Below, in pieces: positions 1-63,932 of a stretch of 64,000 nucleotides of DNA. The notes under the pieces are model-generated. The model made no database searches and was not told the DNA's origin. It saw only the letters and a list, made by a program, of their open reading frames with translations. The translations under genes were made by a program, and so were the position numbers. The stretch lies in assembly GCF_000949475.1 (NCBI RefSeq), contig NZ_JRHC01000002.1, positions 496,001 through 560,000 of the forward strand, in the 5' to 3' direction. The stretch's first letter is position 1. Every line of letters begins with the position of its first letter. This DNA comes from Draconibacterium sediminis (GTDB taxonomy: Bacteria > Bacteroidota > Bacteroidia > Bacteroidales > Prolixibacteraceae).

Positions 1-1322
1 ATGCCTATGCCTCCAATCCGGATTATGATGGTTTTCCATTAACCCGGGAAAACCCGGAGCTGGCTACTTTAAGGTGGGCCCAATATTATTTTAATACCTT
101 AAACTATATCGACCAACCGGAGCGTTTTGGCGAAGATGCCTACAACCAATTCAACTGGGGACAAAGCAGTGTTCGTATTAATTATAAATCCATATCACTG
201 GGCCTTTCCAATGAAAACCTCTGGTGGGGCCCCGGCAGACGCAATAGCTTGTTAATGACTAATACAGCGCCCGGTTTTCGTCATTATACTTTAAATACCA
301 CCCGTCCGATTCAGACACCTCTTGGTTCCTTTGAAGGACAAATTATAATTGGGAATCTTAAAGCTTCGGGATACCCGCCTCCCAATACCGAGGTAAAAGA
401 CCACAACGGCATTGGCTTTTATTCGCCCAAAAGGCAAGACGATCGATATTTTAACGGCATGATCCTGAATTACAGCCCCAGGTGGGTAAAAGGCCTTCAT
501 CTGGGCTTAATCCGTAGTTTCCAGATGTATAAGATCGATATGGACGACTCCTTCAATGCCTATTTGCCCGTTTTTAGTCCTTTCAGCCAAAAAGGAATAG
601 AAAAACAAGCGGGAGATACCAAAGAAGGTGAATTGAGTAACTACCAGAAAAGAGACGCATACTATTCGTTTTTTATGCGTTATGTCTGGCCCAAAGCACA
701 TGTTGAAATATATGCGGAATATGGACTGGCCGACAATCATTGGGTCGGAAGAGATTTTATTGTGGAGCTGGAACATTCAAGGGCCTTTAACTATGGGTTC
801 AGAAAACTAATTGATCTCCCTTCTGAGGATCAGGTTATTCAGGTGGGCATGGAAATCACTCATTTGGCAAAAAATCCAACCTCAGTATTAAGAGGCCCCC
901 AGGGTGTTTACCAGCAGGGCAGCAAAACCTGGTACACCGGCGTTGGTGTCCGGCAGGGTTATACCCACCAGGGGCAACTGCTGGGTGCCGGAATCGGACC
1001 GGGTAGTAACTTAATGAGTTTAAATGTGGGCTGGAACAAAGGTTTGAAAGGGATTGGACTTCATCTGGAACGGTATGCCCACAACGAAGATTTTCACAAT
1101 GAAATCATAAAAGATATACGAATGCACTGGGTCGATCTGGCAGCCGGATTAAACGGAAGTTGGGATTATAAGAATCTGTTGTTTTCACTGAATTTAAAAT
1201 TTGTAGGTGCCAAAAACTATCAATGGGAGTATGACTTTAACTGGAACGAATACTGGGATAACAGTCGTGGCGAAGATGTGTTTAATTTCCATGGTAAGTT
1301 GGGAATTATGTATCGTTTCTAG
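1..1322 (+). CDS. Wzi-like capsule assembly outer-membrane protein (5' end outside window)
   Basis: The frame is open from the first complete codon at base 3 to the TAG at 1320-1322, so the gene starts upstream of the window. An internal ATG at 249 is not the start: the residues before it still align with the next gene, for example the shared blocks GQSSVR, SNENLWWGPG and, later, GYTHxGQLxGAGI. The protein is rich in alternating aromatic and polar strands and ends in Arg-Phe, as outer-membrane beta-barrels do. Wzi-family proteins are lectin-like barrels that hold capsular polysaccharide on the cell surface. It is a tandem paralogue of the gene at 1660-3342 and lies at the upstream edge of a polysaccharide locus. 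The assignment rests on resemblance to that family and on context. No signal peptide can be checked because the N-terminus is missing. Confidence 0.75.
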   Translation, partial: AYASNPDYDGFPLTRENPELATLRWAQYYFNTLNYIDQPERFGEDAYNQFNWGQSSVRINYKSISLGLSNENLWWGPGRRNSLLMTNTAPGFRHYTLNTTRPIQTPLGSFEGQIIIGNLKASGYPPPNTEVKDHNGIGFYSPKRQDDRYFNGMILNYSPRWVKGLHLGLIRSFQMYKIDMDDSFNAYLPVFSPFSQKGIEKQAGDTKEGELSNYQKRDAYYSFFMRYVWPKAHVEIYAEYGLADNHWVGRDFIVELEHSRAFNYGFRKLIDLPSEDQVIQVGMEITHLAKNPTSVLRGPQGVYQQGSKTWYTGVGVRQGYTHQGQLLGAGIGPGSNLMSLNVGWNKGLKGIGLHLERYAHNEDFHNEIIKDIRMHWVDLAAGLNGSWDYKNLLFSLNLKFVGAKNYQWEYDFNWNEYWDNSRGEDVFNFHGKLGIMYRF

Positions 1323-59089: not shown

Positions 59090-60517
59090 ATGAACAACGA
59101 ATACAGATCTGCATGGGAGAAATGCCTTAACGTTATTAAAGATAACGTTCCTAGCAGCAGTTTTAAGACTTGGTTCGAACCAATCGAGCCGGTTAAATTG
59201 GAGAATAAAGTATTAACGATTCAGGTACCAAGTGCCTTTTTCTACGAGTATCTTGAAGAACAGTTTATCGACATTCTTCGTAAGACACTTCGTATGGTTT
59301 TAGGTAACGGAGCCAAATTGGAATATAACGTTGTTTTAAGCAATAAAAACAGTAATGAACCGTATACTGTTAGTTATCCTACGAATAACAACAACAAAAT
59401 TCAAAATAAACCACTTACTGTGCCATTAAAAGCGGAGGAAAAAGCAACAATAAAAAATCCATTTATAATTCCGGGGATCCAGAAATTACAGATCGACCCG
59501 CAATTAAAACCGGACAATACTTTCGAAAATTTTGTAGAAGGTGATTGTAACCGACTGGCACGTAGTGCTGGTTTTGCCGTTGCTCAAAATCCGGGAGGAA
59601 CAGCTTTTAATCCCTTAATGATTTACGGTAACTCAGGTTTGGGGAAAACTCACTTGTCGCAAGCTATTGGTATCCAGGTAAAAGAAAATTTTCCCGACAA
59701 AGTGGTTTTGTATGTAAACGCAAATAAATTTCAAACGCAATTTACCGAGGCAACACGTAATAATAACAGAAACGACTTTTTACATTTCTACCAAATGGTT
59801 GATGTGTTGATTCTTGACGATGTGCATGAGTTTGCAGGAAAAGAAAAAACACAGGAAACATTCTTCCACATTTTCAACCACTTGCACCAAATGGGTAAGC
59901 AGCTGATTTTAACATCAGATAAGCCGCCTATTGAGCTGAAAGGAATGGAACAGAGACTCTTGTCGCGTTTTAAGTGGGGATTGACTGCTGATTTGCAAAC
60001 ACCCGACTTTGAAACTCGTATGGAAATTCTGCGTCGTAAAATTTATAAAGACGGCATTACTCTTTCGGATGAAGTATTGGAATATATTGCATCGCATGTA
60101 ACCAATAATGTTCGCGAGCTGGAAGGTGCATTGGTTTCATTGCTGGCACAGTCGATGTTGAACAAGCGCGAAATTACGCTTGAACTGGCTGCCAAGTTGA
60201 TCAACAAACTGGTTAAAAACTCAAAACGCGAACTTTCTATCGAGTACATTTCGAAAGTAGTTTGTGATTATTTCAGCATGCCGGTTGATGCACTGCAAAC
60301 CAAAACCAGGAAACGCGAAATTGTTCAGGCACGGCAAATAGCCATGTATTTCTCGAAAAGTTTAACGAAATACTCGCTGGCAAGTATCGGGGCACAAATT
60401 GGTAGCAAAGACCACGCTACGGTTCTCCACGCTTGCAAAACTGTAAACAACCTGAAGGATACCGATAAGAATTTCCGACAGTTTGTTGAAGACATAGAAA
60501 AGAAATTAAAAATGTAA
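59090..60517 (+). CDS. dnaA: Chromosomal replication initiator DnaA
   Basis: 475 residues, the usual length. Domain I is at the N-terminus (AWEKCLNVIKDNVPSSSFKTWFEPIEPVKLE). Domain III (AAA+) has GNSGLGKTHLSQAIG (Walker A, about residues 180-194), VLILDDVHEFAGKEKTQETFFHIFNHL (Walker B) and LTSDKPPIELKGMEQRLLSRFKWGL. Domain IV has QTKTRKREIVQARQIAMYFSK and SKDHATVLHACKTV, the DNA-recognition signature. It binds oriC DnaA boxes and opens DNA. The region just upstream is AT-rich with poly-T runs but contains no clear DnaA-box cluster, so an origin here is not supported. A terminator follows the gene. Confidence 0.99.
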   Translation: MNNEYRSAWEKCLNVIKDNVPSSSFKTWFEPIEPVKLENKVLTIQVPSAFFYEYLEEQFIDILRKTLRMVLGNGAKLEYNVVLSNKNSNEPYTVSYPTNNNNKIQNKPLTVPLKAEEKATIKNPFIIPGIQKLQIDPQLKPDNTFENFVEGDCNRLARSAGFAVAQNPGGTAFNPLMIYGNSGLGKTHLSQAIGIQVKENFPDKVVLYVNANKFQTQFTEATRNNNRNDFLHFYQMVDVLILDDVHEFAGKEKTQETFFHIFNHLHQMGKQLILTSDKPPIELKGMEQRLLSRFKWGLTADLQTPDFETRMEILRRKIYKDGITLSDEVLEYIASHVTNNVRELEGALVSLLAQSMLNKREITLELAAKLINKLVKNSKRELSIEYISKVVCDYFSMPVDALQTKTRKREIVQARQIAMYFSKSLTKYSLASIGAQIGSKDHATVLHACKTVNNLKDTDKNFRQFVEDIEKKLKM

Positions 60518-60555: not shown

Positions 60556-61413
60556 ATGATTTATCTGATCCTGTGCATCCTTTCATCATCAATGATCTAT
60601 GTGATTTTCAGAGTTGCAAAAAATTACAATTGTAAACTTCAGTCACTGATCACGATAAACTATTTGGCTGCCAGTTTACTGGGCATTCTTTTGTTTCAAC
60701 CATTTGCTGAGGCCAATACCCCGGCCACACTCCCCCACTGGATGCCTTTTGCCATACTACTCGGAATCCTTTTTATTGCCATGTTTTACTTAATTGGTCA
60801 CAGTGCCCAGAAAGCAGGAATTACCGTAACCACGCTTGCCAATAAGTTATCGCTGGTTTTTCCGGTAACCTTCTCACTCATCTATTTTAACGAACAGCTT
60901 TCAACATTAAAAGCAATTGGAATAGTAACAGCGATAATTGCCGTTGGATTAACGGTTTATAAAAAGGAACTTACCAAAACAAACCTGGTTTATATTGTTT
61001 TGCCTCTGTTTATCTTTTTAGGAAGTGGTTTGATCGACTCGATTGTAAAATATGTTCAGGCGGTAAAAATATCGGAAAGCGAAACATCGTTATACACCAT
61101 CCTGGTTTTTATGGTTGCCTTTTTATGTGGAGTACTCGTTTCGATATTCACAAAAACTTACCGGCTAAAACTAAATCCGGCAACACTACTCTTCGGGGCA
61201 CTTTTGGGTATTACGAATTTTGGGTCCCTGTATTTTATTATAAAAGCACTGAATAATTCAGGCCTGGAAAGTTCGCTGGTATTTGCCCTTAATAACATGG
61301 CTATTGTGGCATTTACAGCCATTTTAGGCACCTTACTTTTTAAAGAACGGCTGAATAAAATTAACTTTGCAGGTGTTGTATTGGCACTCATCAGTTTATA
61401 TTTCCTGTTGTAA
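60556..61413 (+). CDS. EamA-family (DMT) transporter
   Basis: 285 residues with ten predicted membrane helices in two repeats: MIYLILCILSSSMIYVIFRVAKN at the start and GALLGITNFGSLYFIIKALNN and LNNMAIVAFTAILGTLLFKERLNKIN in the second half, the usual EamA pattern. It is likely an inner-membrane exporter or importer of small metabolites; the substrate cannot be predicted. The gene begins six bases after the dnaA terminator, so its own promoter must lie elsewhere or the terminator is leaky. Its TAA overlaps the next start (TAATG). Confidence 0.85.
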   Translation: MIYLILCILSSSMIYVIFRVAKNYNCKLQSLITINYLAASLLGILLFQPFAEANTPATLPHWMPFAILLGILFIAMFYLIGHSAQKAGITVTTLANKLSLVFPVTFSLIYFNEQLSTLKAIGIVTAIIAVGLTVYKKELTKTNLVYIVLPLFIFLGSGLIDSIVKYVQAVKISESETSLYTILVFMVAFLCGVLVSIFTKTYRLKLNPATLLFGALLGITNFGSLYFIIKALNNSGLESSLVFALNNMAIVAFTAILGTLLFKERLNKINFAGVVLALISLYFLL

Positions 61414-62015
61414 TGGACGATCAGTATAAAACCATAGAAACACCGAGTAACGGCTACTTTAAAGACAAAGGCAGCAAATTTTATTCGTATGCCTACCCCT
61501 TAAAAGATGAAGAAGAAGTAAAAGAGCTGGTTGCTGCATTAAAAAAAGAACACCACAGTGCGCGCCATCACTGTTATGCCTGGCGACTGGGCACTGAAGA
61601 AATTCGTACGCGCGCAAACGATGACGGCGAACCTTCATCAACAGCCGGGAAACCTATTTTAGGGCAATTACAAAGCTACGAAGTAACCAATATTCTGGTG
61701 GTAGTGGTTCGTTATTTTGGCGGTACACTGCTTGGCGTTAGCGGGCTTATTAATGCCTACCGGGAGGCTACGGTTGAAGCGCTGAACAATGCCGAAATAA
61801 TTTCGAAACTTATTGAAATTCAGTATGAACTAAAATTTGAATACGACATGCTGAACACCGTTATGAATAAGCTAAAACAAGATAATTACGATATTGTAAA
61901 AACCGATTTTCAGGAAAGCTGCCGGCTGATATTTAAAGCGCGGAAATCAGAGGATAAAAGGGCTTTCCAATCGTTTAACGAAATATATGGAATAGAAATA
62001 AAAAGGCTGGATTAG
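61413..62015 (+). CDS. yigZ: YigZ/IMPACT family protein
   Basis: 200 residues. The N-terminal UPF0029 domain has FKDKGSKFYSYAYPLKDEEEVKELVAALKKEHHSARHHCYAWRLG, where His and Cys are conserved, then RTRANDDGEPSSTAGKPILGQLQ and VVRYFGGTLLGVSGLINAYREA, the family signature near residue 107-127. A C-terminal beta domain (ISKLIEIQYELKFEYDM) follows. The eukaryotic IMPACT homologue regulates GCN2; the bacterial role is not fixed. It is translationally coupled to the EamA gene by a one-base overlap. Confidence 0.92.
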   Translation: MDDQYKTIETPSNGYFKDKGSKFYSYAYPLKDEEEVKELVAALKKEHHSARHHCYAWRLGTEEIRTRANDDGEPSSTAGKPILGQLQSYEVTNILVVVVRYFGGTLLGVSGLINAYREATVEALNNAEIISKLIEIQYELKFEYDMLNTVMNKLKQDNYDIVKTDFQESCRLIFKARKSEDKRAFQSFNEIYGIEIKRLD

Positions 62016-62060
62016 CATTTTTATGTGTTAATAAAATGCTGATAAGTACGCCACACTATT

Positions 62061-62092
62061 TTTGACAAACGTTAACTAACACTGTATTTTTG
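62061..62092 (+). promoter_or_regulatory. Consensus promoter of pyrBI
   Basis: TTTG (62061-62064), a 20-base spacer, and TATTTTTG (62085-62092) match the Bacteroidota -33/-7 consensus exactly. The start of transcription should fall a few bases after 62092, that is, at or beside the ATGATG of the leader frame at 62097. Confidence 0.75.
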
Positions 62093-62096
62093 AACC

Positions 62097-62333
62097 ATGA
62101 TGCTACGCGTGATATTCCACTTTACTTTTCTTGAGCGAGGCACTAACAAACGCTTTGAGAAGGTTTCTTTTTCCCATCGCTGCATCAGACGATTTTTAAA
62201 AGCAATCGTTTTTATCTATAAAAAAGGTTCTACTTTTTTAGCAATTAACGAAGACCAACATTTTCTTTTCCGAAATGTTGGTCTTCTTTTTTTCAGTCAA
62301 CCACATTATCAAATTCAATATTTAAGGCAATGA
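62097..62333 (+). CDS. Possible pyrBI leader peptide (pyrL-like)
   Basis: A 78-codon frame runs from ATGATG at 62097 to a TGA at 62331-62333 that overlaps the pyrB ATG (ATGA). It is rich in Phe and Arg/Lys and has U-rich codon runs ([35 protein letters not shown]), resembling the Phe-rich enterobacterial PyrL leader in character but not in sequence. It reads through the terminator hairpin at 62250-62286. If translated, the ribosome would prevent the hairpin from forming. The first codon may lie at the very 5' end of the RNA. Translation has not been shown; a non-coding leader is the alternative. Confidence 0.5.
62189..62213 (+). promoter_or_regulatory. Pause-like hairpin in the pyrBI leader
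   Basis: ACGATT (62189-62194) and AATCGT (62204-62209) form a 6-base stem with a 9-base loop, followed directly by TTTTATCTAT. A weak hairpin followed by a U-run is where RNA polymerase pauses when UTP is low. It is 40 bases upstream of the attenuator stem. Confidence 0.5.
62250..62293 (+). terminator. Intrinsic terminator (attenuator) before pyrB
   Basis: GAAGACCAACATTT (62250-62263) and its exact complement (62273-62286) form a 14-base perfect stem with a 9-base loop, followed by seven Ts. It lies between the promoter at 62061-62092 and the pyrB start at 62330, so it must be overcome for pyrB to be expressed from that promoter. Confidence 0.9.
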
Positions 62334-63238
62334 AGAAGGATTTAATTTCGATCACAGATTTCTCGAAAGAAGAATATCTGAGAATTATGGAACTGGCTGC
62401 GGATTTTGAAGCAAATCCGAACCAGGAATTGTTGAAAGGGAAAGTTGTTGCCTCCCTTTTTTTTGAACCATCAACACGCACACGCTTAAGTTTCGAAACA
62501 GCGATTAATCGTTTGGGGGGACGAATTGTTGGTTTTGCCGATCCTGACAGCTCGAGTGCAACAAAAGGAGAAACACTGCACGACACTATTAAAATGGTGA
62601 GCAACTATGCCGACCTTATTGTTATGCGTCACCCGCTTGAAGGCGCAGCGCGTTATGCTGCCGAAGTTTCAAGTGTACCGATCATCAATGCCGGCGACGG
62701 TGCCAATCAGCACCCTACACAAACCCTGCTCGACATGTATTCTATTTTAAAAACACAGGGAACACTAGATAACCTGAACCTGTTTATGGTTGGCGACCTG
62801 AAATTTGGAAGAACGGTACATTCGCTGCTACAGGCTATGTCTGAATTCGAGAATCCGATTTTTAACTTCATTGCACCCGAAAGTTTGCAAATGCCACGCG
62901 GCTATAAGCACCATTTGGAAGAAAGAGGCATTCGTTATTTTGAGCACGAAGAGTTTACCGATATTATTTCGGAAGCCGATATTATTTACATGACCCGCGT
63001 TCAGAAGGAACGTTTTTCGGACCCGATAGAATACGAAAAAGTGAAAGATGTTTACATTTTAAATAAAGCGATGCTGGAAAATACCAAACCAAATGTTCGG
63101 GTGTTACATCCGCTGCCACGCGTTAACGAAATTGCCACTGATGTAGATAGCAGCGAAAAAGCTTACTATTTCGAACAGGCGCTAAACGGGGTATTTACCC
63201 GCGAAGCCATCATCTCACATGTAATGAACCTTAAATAA
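62330..63238 (+). CDS. pyrB: Aspartate carbamoyltransferase catalytic subunit
   Basis: 302 residues. The carbamoyl-phosphate site is [15 protein letters not shown] near residue 45-60 (S-T-R-T-R), with HPLEGAAR and [10 protein letters not shown] near residue 102-138, and [14 protein letters not shown] [10 protein letters not shown] near residue 262. It makes carbamoyl-aspartate from carbamoyl phosphate and aspartate, the first committed step of pyrimidine synthesis. Its ATG overlaps the leader stop, and the regulatory-chain gene follows by seven bases, so the holoenzyme is likely of the PyrB-PyrI type. Confidence 0.98.
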
Positions 63239-63245
63239 TACCGCC

Positions 63246-63719
63246 ATGGAAAAAAATGACGCAAAAAAGAAACTAAAATTAAAAGTTAGTGCCATTAAAG
63301 ACGGAACAGTGATCGACCATATTCCGGCAAAAAGTTTATTTGAGGTAATTTCCATATTAGGACTCGACACTATCAAAAACCAGATCACTTTCGGAACCAA
63401 CCTTGAAAGCAGTAAGTTGGGCGCAAAAGCTATTATAAAGGTATCGGATAAGTTTTTTGAAAACGACGAGATCAACAAAATAGCACTGATCGCACCACAC
63501 GCCAAGCTCAACATCATAAGAGATTACGAAGTGGCCGAAAAGAAAATTGTTGAAATACCGGAAAAAATTACAGGAATTGTAAAATGCTTTAATCCAAAGT
63601 GTATTACCAACAACGAAAAGATAACTACTTCGTTTAAAGTAATTAACACAAGTCCGGTTGCCTTAAAATGTAAATACTGCGAAAAGATTACAGCAGAAAA
63701 CCAAATAAAAATGTTGTAA
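63246..63719 (+). CDS. pyrI: Aspartate carbamoyltransferase regulatory subunit
   Basis: 157 residues. The allosteric nucleotide-binding domain has LKVSAIKDGTVIDHIPAKSLFEVISILGL near residues 11-39. The zinc domain has Cys114, Cys119, Cys142 and Cys145 (KCFNPKCITNNE and LKCKYCEK), matching the enterobacterial pattern. It confers CTP inhibition and ATP activation on PyrB. Seven bases separate it from pyrB, and a terminator follows. Confidence 0.97.
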   Translation: MEKNDAKKKLKLKVSAIKDGTVIDHIPAKSLFEVISILGLDTIKNQITFGTNLESSKLGAKAIIKVSDKFFENDEINKIALIAPHAKLNIIRDYEVAEKKIVEIPEKITGIVKCFNPKCITNNEKITTSFKVINTSPVALKCKYCEKITAENQIKML

Positions 63720-63845: not shown

Positions 63846-63932
63846 GCCCAGTTGGCGGAATTGGTAGACGCGCTAGTTTCAGGGACTAGTATTCTTATGA
63901 ATGTGAAGGTTCGAGTCCTTTACTGGGCACCA
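63846..63932 (+). tRNA. tRNA-Leu (anticodon CAG)
   Basis: 87 bases with encoded CCA (63930-63932). The acceptor arms GCCCAGT and ACTGGGC pair perfectly. The anticodon stem CTAGT/ACTAG encloses a loop TTCAGGG with anticodon CAG. A long variable arm (about 15 bases) and the TTCGAGTC T-loop region mark it as a class II leucine tRNA. It reads CUG codons. Confidence 0.95.

Follow-up and report, generated by a model that had tools for sequence, protein, structure and literature searches.

A probable translation-dependent, PyrL-like attenuator in the pyrBI leader of Draconibacterium sediminis and other Prolixibacteraceae

Results

Organization of the pyrBI locus

The window (the whole stretch of 64,000 nucleotides that was analyzed, to which all coordinates refer) carries, in this order, dnaA, an EamA-like gene, yigZ, a leader open reading frame, pyrB, pyrI, and a gene for tRNA-Leu(CAG) (Table 1). 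We take the names of dnaA (59090-60517) and of the EamA-like gene between dnaA and yigZ from their translations, and they are to be read as presumptive. The PyrB encoded in the window and that of D. mangrovi (locus L085) share 100% identity. As the first-pass annotation of this DNA had noted, the leader frame starts with ATGATG, pyrBI follows it, and its TGA shares the sequence ATGA (62330-62333) with the start codon of pyrB; the terminator ending in seven Us was likewise found, with a stem (62250-62264/62272-62286) of 14 Watson-Crick pairs and one G-U pair followed by seven T.

Table 1. Features of the pyrBI locus, in window coordinates
Feature	Position	Strand	Basis or remark
yigZ	61413-62015		upstream of the leader
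-33 element, TTTG	62061..62064	+	Bacteroidota (sigma-ABfr type) promoter; consensus in the available text of PMC7366714
-7 box, TATTTTTG	62085..62092	+	by consensus (TAnnTTTG)
Predicted transcription start, A of the leader ATG	62097	+	from box spacing (available text of PMC9723704)
Leader ORF	62097..62333	+	78 codons plus TGA; ATGATG start
Helix P1, 5' strand	62098..62109	+	takes in the start-codon region; fold, family covariation
Hairpin P2	62125..62162	+	fold; covariation z -5.7
U/C run TTTCTTTTTCCC, candidate UTP-sensitive pause	62164..62175	+	directly before the P1 3' strand
Helix P1, 3' strand	62178..62187	+	partner of the AUG region; fold, covariation
Small pre-terminator hairpin, then U-rich RNA	62219..62240	+	second candidate pause; fold; covariation z -4.0
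Intrinsic terminator (attenuator)	62250..62293	+	15-pair stem plus T7; covariation z -10
pyrB, aspartate carbamoyltransferase catalytic chain	62330..63238	+	TIGR00670, 374.5 bits
pyrI, aspartate carbamoyltransferase regulatory chain	63246..63719	+	TIGR00240, 167.7 bits
tRNA-Leu(CAG)	63846-63932		downstream of pyrI

A consensus promoter had also been claimed before the leader. A promoter is present by consensus, but the E. coli-type match reaches only 10/12, and such matches are no more common than in shuffled sequences. The consensus given for the primary sigma factor of Bacteroidota in the available text of PMC7366714 is TTTG at -33 and TAnnTTTG at -7, and the accessible part of PMC9723704 positions TAnnTTTG at -12 to -5. 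Judged by these sequences, the promoter before pyrBI is better read as of the Bacteroidota type. With a box at -12 to -5, +1 falls on the A of the first ATG (62097), and a leaderless start of the leader frame is therefore predicted.

Two further observations concern the surrounding DNA. Loci of Draconibacterium and Maribellus share, by eye, the sequence TGTTAATAAAATGCTGATAAGTAC (62026-62049) that precedes the promoter; its conservation is looser further out, and the flanking DNA is not conserved. A conserved TGTTAATAA motif near dnaA prompted the consideration of an origin of replication beside pyrB, which was rejected: there was no cluster of boxes, and the GC skew of the window was indecisive.

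An open leader frame is kept in sampled Prolixibacteraceae

DNA upstream of pyrB was collected from relatives, from 50 loci at first and then from 124 loci of the family; after removal of 28 duplicates and of 3 loci with too little upstream DNA, 93 regions remained. Relatives with a similar PyrB (77-100% identity) are over-represented, as the loci were drawn from the best matches (best 80 of 526). A leader was defined by the strongest hairpin followed by a T run, by a TAnnTT[TC][GA] box 60-240 nt before it, and by the nearest ATG 3-13 nt after the box; the openness of the frame was not used in the choice. This rule accepted 72 leaders, of which L160, lying in yigZ coding sequence, was dropped before all counts, leaving 71.

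In 71/71 accepted leaders, the frame of the promoter-proximal ATG ran without a stop to a point at most 10 nt from the terminator stem; the first-pass annotation had staked its proposal on the conservation of this frame in relatives. When only representatives at less than 60% identity were considered, the frame was open in 32/32, with the other two frames open in 1 and 3, and dinucleotide shuffles gave an expectation of 4.47; the log10 product of the shuffle probabilities was -29.7 if the representatives are taken as independent, which holds only in part. The frame was equally open in all 25 leaders at less than 50% identity and in all 22 at less than 45%, the other frames being open in 1-3. 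On these comparisons, the observation that suggests a switch set by a ribosome holds as far from chance. The distance from the ATG to the stem ranged from 109 to 166 nt across the 71 leaders and fell in all three phases, which indicates that insertions and deletions have not disrupted the frame. The short distance from promoter to ATG is also backed by the comparison: the box lay 4-8 nt before the leader ATG in 71/71 accepted leaders (4 nt in 33, 5 in 8, 6 in 1, 7 in 27, and 8 in 2), which puts the AUG at the predicted transcription start or 1-4 nt from it.

The terminator finder missed 20 of the 93 family regions. Leader frames were nevertheless open in the missed loci L053 (where no terminator was detected), L081, L135, L136, L137, and L147. 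In L150 and L162 the open frame begins, by eye, about 25 nt after the box, and the first ATG in range in L162 yields only 12 codons; L141 failed the box rule and shows, by eye, a short frame ending in a terminator. By eye, some 12 of the 93 regions lack a leader, with pyrB placed close behind yigZ. Since these regions are without a leader, and L053 is without a detected terminator, the leader is not indispensable. The leader was not visible in L125, L145, L151-L154, L156, L157, L159, L161, L163, and L164; a promoter-like box and a short remnant remain in L163, which suggests a loss by deletion. In L053, the promoter-proximal frame and the ATGA overlap are retained.

The leader peptide diverges almost completely across the sampled Prolixibacteraceae, even within the genus, and had no family match in Pfam or NCBIfam; the peptide of one relative gave a match to DUF6304 (Pfam) below the cut-off (E 0.028). 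A comparison of 11 close relatives over the 50 codons before the terminator gave 41 distinct changes, 10 of them synonymous, a proportion of 0.244 against 0.229 for random non-stop mutations. By this measure the peptide is free to change, and the absence of stop codons alone is kept. A real small protein was rejected as the product of the leader, given the lack of a Pfam or NCBIfam family and the near neutral ratio of the changes. With the frame open and the peptide not conserved, an action of leader translation on the terminator is therefore favored. The PyrL-like, translation-dependent attenuation that the first-pass annotation had proposed is thus well supported, and we consider it probable that pyrBI is controlled here by a transcription attenuator working like that of E. 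coli PyrL.

Attenuation of this kind could depend on translation while responding to the general state of translation or growth, or to an amino acid such as Phe, rather than to UTP-dependent pausing. The codon composition of the 32 leaders gives some room to this idea, with excesses over the mononucleotide-shuffle null of 1.91 for Phe, 1.82 for Gly, 1.7 for His, 1.57 for Lys, and 1.48 for Gln. However, the excess of Phe may stem from in-frame U runs; pyrBI makes pyrimidines, and Asp, the substrate of its product, is not enriched (0.81); and the swap scan (see below) showed no strong second hairpin that could rival the terminator, unlike in amino-acid attenuators. We regard such a signal as unlikely and retain a PyrL-like attenuator with a likely link to UTP as the preferred reading.

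The stop codons of the 71 frames fall at the foot of the stem or in the stem (9), between the stem and pyrB (27), at the ATGA (27), or inside pyrB (8), and these positions fit a ribosome whose job would be to reach the terminator. Among the representatives whose frames reach the pyrB ATG, the phase is that of the ATGA in 9/12 (P = 0.0039 for a one-third expectation), a moderate sign, at the level of sequence, of translational coupling from the leader to pyrB. This bias is what one would expect if the frame served coupling alone, with the ribosome handed over to pyrB at the ATGA and the terminator a weak bystander; yet 44/71 frames end elsewhere than at ATGA, and no helix of the leader is better supported than the terminator, so that we hold this reading to be very unlikely and keep to an attenuator acted on by the leader ribosome. 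Relative to the window, L034 and L054 carry about 72 extra bases between terminator and pyrB, and their frames still reach the ATGA; L040 is extended likewise, by about 90 bases.

Four helices of the leader RNA covary in the family

Pairing was evaluated by a swap test in which the partner segments of the same species were compared with partners taken from other representatives. The test preserves the make-up of the columns and corrects only partly for shared ancestry. It was run as a scan over 363 window pairs, 153 counted from the ATG and 210 from the terminator. Four helices stood out and are thereby backed by comparison: P1, P2, the pre-terminator hairpin, and the terminator. P1, which encloses the AUG and is additional to the parts listed by the first-pass annotation, was detected between the AUG region (0..15) and +72..87 (z -5.9) and between the 5' end and +70..93 (z -7.0); 0/20000 partner swaps matched its observed mean energy in the 32 representatives. 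P2 corresponds to the segments 30..45 and 48..63, and the pre-terminator hairpin to -33..-18 and -15..0 relative to the terminator. P1 and P2 persisted in the 25 and in the 22 more divergent leaders, with 0/20000 swaps for P2 in both sets. Control windows off the 3' strand of P1 (starting at +20 to +50, +90, and +100) gave z values of -0.6 to +0.2; the control window +110..133 gave -2.3, and several further pairs in the scan lay at about -3.

Individual loci illustrate P1, with GAUGAAAUGCC paired with GGCAUUUUAUC in L073 and L110, and GAUGAAACGCC paired with GGCGUUUUAUC in L077. The helix is not universal: the own partner ranked worse than 16th of 32 in 10/32 representatives, the duplex had a z below -1.64 in only 15/32, and P1 alone was not significant in the D. 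mangrovi locus L023, whose leader is nearly that of the window (z -1.15, p 0.11). Inspection by eye shows the weak hairpin that the first-pass annotation had placed before UUUUAUCUAU (62188-62210) to be conserved among close relatives. It is absent from the 22 strongest covarying pairs listed for the family, among which the pre-terminator hairpin at 62219-62240 is found instead, and it is therefore not supported as a pause hairpin of the whole family.

No strong pairing that would compete with the terminator was found in the 363 window pairs, a scan with low power for the conserved arms of the terminator; weak pairings of -39..-24 with the foot of the terminator reached z -2.7 to -3.0 at about -3 kcal/mol. 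The best match to PyrR in the genome scored 34.3 bits against a cut-off of 138 (one model, NF003549). A search of the window with Rfam returned only a tRNA at gathering score, and at a permissive threshold all matches in 62000-62400 were hairpin look-alikes far below it.

These results bear on two other explanations. The covarying P1 and P2 form a 5' domain that might be a binding site, and a leader binding a metabolite or a protein (of riboswitch or PyrR type) could close the terminator directly; against this, neither a PyrR above the cut-off nor an Rfam hit reaching gathering score was found, the scan gave no strong antiterminator pairing, and such a leader would not account for the open frame, which makes a binding leader highly improbable. 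That the terminator yields a stand-alone sRNA, with pyrB expressed by read-through or from another promoter and an incidental open frame, is scarcely credible: the leader RNA is compact (about 200 nt), has its own terminator and folds 4.4 sd below shuffles (62097-62296, the terminator contributing much), but no Rfam family reaches gathering score in the region, and an sRNA needs no open frame, yet 71/71 leaders of varying length and sequence have one. The first 94 nt from the 5' end, taken alone, fold 1.75 sd below shuffles, and 14 of 200 shuffles fold as well. The reading we favor, a terminator governed by leader translation, is the one followed below.

A U/C run often precedes the predicted partner of the start codon

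A run of T3 plus CC occurs at +45..+95 in 19/32 representatives, against a frequency of 0.108 in mononucleotide shuffles, and 15 of these 19 runs lie at +58..+71, just before the 3' strand of P1. The openness of the start codon was computed by folding growing RNAs. Averaged over the 32 leaders, the openness predicted for the first 12 nt fell from 0.59 at an RNA length of 80 nt to 0.41 at 90 nt, whereas the control with shuffled downstream RNA went from 0.55 to 0.52 between the same lengths. The window's own AUG was uneven in this respect, with values of 0.39-0.54 at 50-80 nt, 0.68 at 85 nt, and 0.34-0.37 from 95 nt on.

Other families and other pyrimidine genes

The other families of Bacteroidales were represented by 106 loci, drawn in part from 140 genomes with PyrB, which gave 98 usable upstream regions. 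A terminator was found in 37/98, and 15 of these also had a box before it. Twelve of the 15 promoter-terminator leaders were open from the first ATG 3-30 nt after the box, where 4.5 were expected and the other frames gave 0 and 4; in four of the 15, the stem is preceded by no more than 5-8 codons, and these are little informative. With 7-25 nt between box and ATG, most of these leaders have a short 5' UTR. The frame of L185 ends in ATGA, as does that of L060, for which the finder gave no terminator. By sequence, similar layouts occur in other Bacteroidales families, without the leaderless start.

The carA genes of the window's own genome (L257) and of relatives (L270-L298) are preceded by a promoter of their own and a terminator that is strongly conserved (GCGTTTG...CAAACGC, T8). 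The relatives comprise 30 loci of 57 genomes with a match, near duplicates being kept and no limit being set on the ATG distance. The first-ATG frame was open in 10/22 family carA leaders and some ATG frame in 21/22, and 7/29 leaders were without any ATG, which sets carA partly apart from the pyrBI leaders. In many relatives an ATG lies about 14 codons before the stem, in a frame open to the stem. The carA leader is possibly another attenuator, of different make. Repeats like AATGAATAAATATTCATT upstream of carA resemble ArgR sites. No terminator was found between box and gene for pyrE, pyrD, and pyrC of the same genome, either by eye or by the finder, whose threshold missed that of carA as well.

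Discussion

The comparisons suggest the following course of events, in which we infer the translation of the leader, the pausing, the response to UTP and the order of the steps. Transcription is predicted to begin at the leader AUG. If a ribosome loaded in time and followed close behind the RNA polymerase, it would cover or unfold the terminator and pyrBI would be transcribed; if it came late or not at all, the terminator would form and the RNA would end near 62293. The accepted frames run to the foot of the terminator or through it, and such a mechanism would need no second hairpin. UTP-dependent pausing in the leader is likely, considering the identity of the operon and the U/C runs. At low UTP the polymerase would be slowed at the U/C-rich stretches, above all at 62164-62175, and the AUG would stay free of its partner at 62178-62187, allowing a ribosome to load and catch up. 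At high UTP the polymerase would run on, P1 would close over the AUG, and transcription would stop. Where the frame ends in ATGA (27/71 leaders, that of the window included), a ribosome leaving the leader may in addition reinitiate at pyrB.

In its most specific form, this proposal implies a start codon gated by time: the leaderless 5' AUG would be usable only until the polymerase makes its partner some 80-90 nt further on, the U/C run would tie the length of this interval to the pyrimidine nucleotide pool, and UTP would be sensed by whether a ribosome loads at all. An AUG at the very 5' end is plausible for early loading, since Bacteroidia ribosomes, according to the available text of PMC9976891, do not recognize Shine-Dalgarno sequences. 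We put this form forward tentatively and think it rather doubtful, since P1 is weak in the window itself and a leaderless start is not the rule in families other than Prolixibacteraceae.

If the attenuator proposed here is real, the enterobacterial logic would have arisen separately in Bacteroidota, with a leaderless start that occludes itself, and transcription-translation coupling in Bacteroidota and pyrimidine sensing without PyrR would become testable questions. Were the start also gated by time, pyrBI of Prolixibacteraceae would provide evidence of close transcription-translation coupling in a phylum that does not use Shine-Dalgarno sequences. Conservation of a leaderless frame with a regulatory role would be unusual, as leaderless mRNAs are a small minority in Bacteroidota: in the available portions of the sources, 5' UTRs under 10 nt account for about 3.7% in B. 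thetaiotaomicron (PMC7366714) and leaderless mRNAs for 5.5% in F. psychrophilum (PMC9723704).

Elements resembling leader peptides have been mentioned for this phylum. The accessible text of PMC9723704 gives clues to amino-acid leader-peptide attenuators in Flavobacterium psychrophilum, and that of PMC7366714 reports, for Bacteroides thetaiotaomicron, sORFs located in long 5' UTRs; as far as these portions go, the frames thought to act on transcription belong to amino-acid operons or to a hypothetical gene, not to pyrBI. The leader described here appears to differ from amino-acid leader attenuators, as the swap scan gave no strong alternative to the terminator hairpin and none of the enriched amino acids suits the pathway. 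Among the literature matches listed, in a search whose coverage mostly excludes subscription journals, there was no report of attenuation in a pyrBI leader of Bacteroidota. Terminator-based control of pyr genes is also exerted by PyrR, in attenuators of the Bacillus type, from which the present leader is set apart by the lack of a PyrR over the cut-off and of a strong antiterminator pairing.

The closest known counterpart is the pyrBI attenuator of E. coli with its leader peptide PyrL, reportedly described by Roland, Liu and Turnbough in 1988. Both systems have the pyrBI operon, a terminator inside the leader frame, and a frame end adjoining the start of pyrB, and in the E. coli leader, too, the terminator is preceded by U/C-rich sequence (TTTTTCTTCCC). 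There, a coupled leader ribosome suppresses termination, according to the available text of PMC4824070 and PMC5021804. The E. coli pyrL has 44 codons, an ATG behind GGAGG and a stop 3 nt before pyrB, whereas the 71 Prolixibacteraceae leaders have 36-108 codons, an AUG at most 4 nt from the predicted start, and a stop in ATGA in 27; they belong to another phylum and are further set apart by the covarying helix over the AUG. No likeness of the peptides was seen when the leader was compared with the E. coli pyrL DNA by eye only. Because the start and the RNA layout differ from those of pyrL, the peptide matches no family, and no PyrR exceeds the cut-off in the genome, convergence is the better reading, and the leader of the window, judged from its sequence, is probably not a pyrL but a convergent or very old variant of the pyrL logic.
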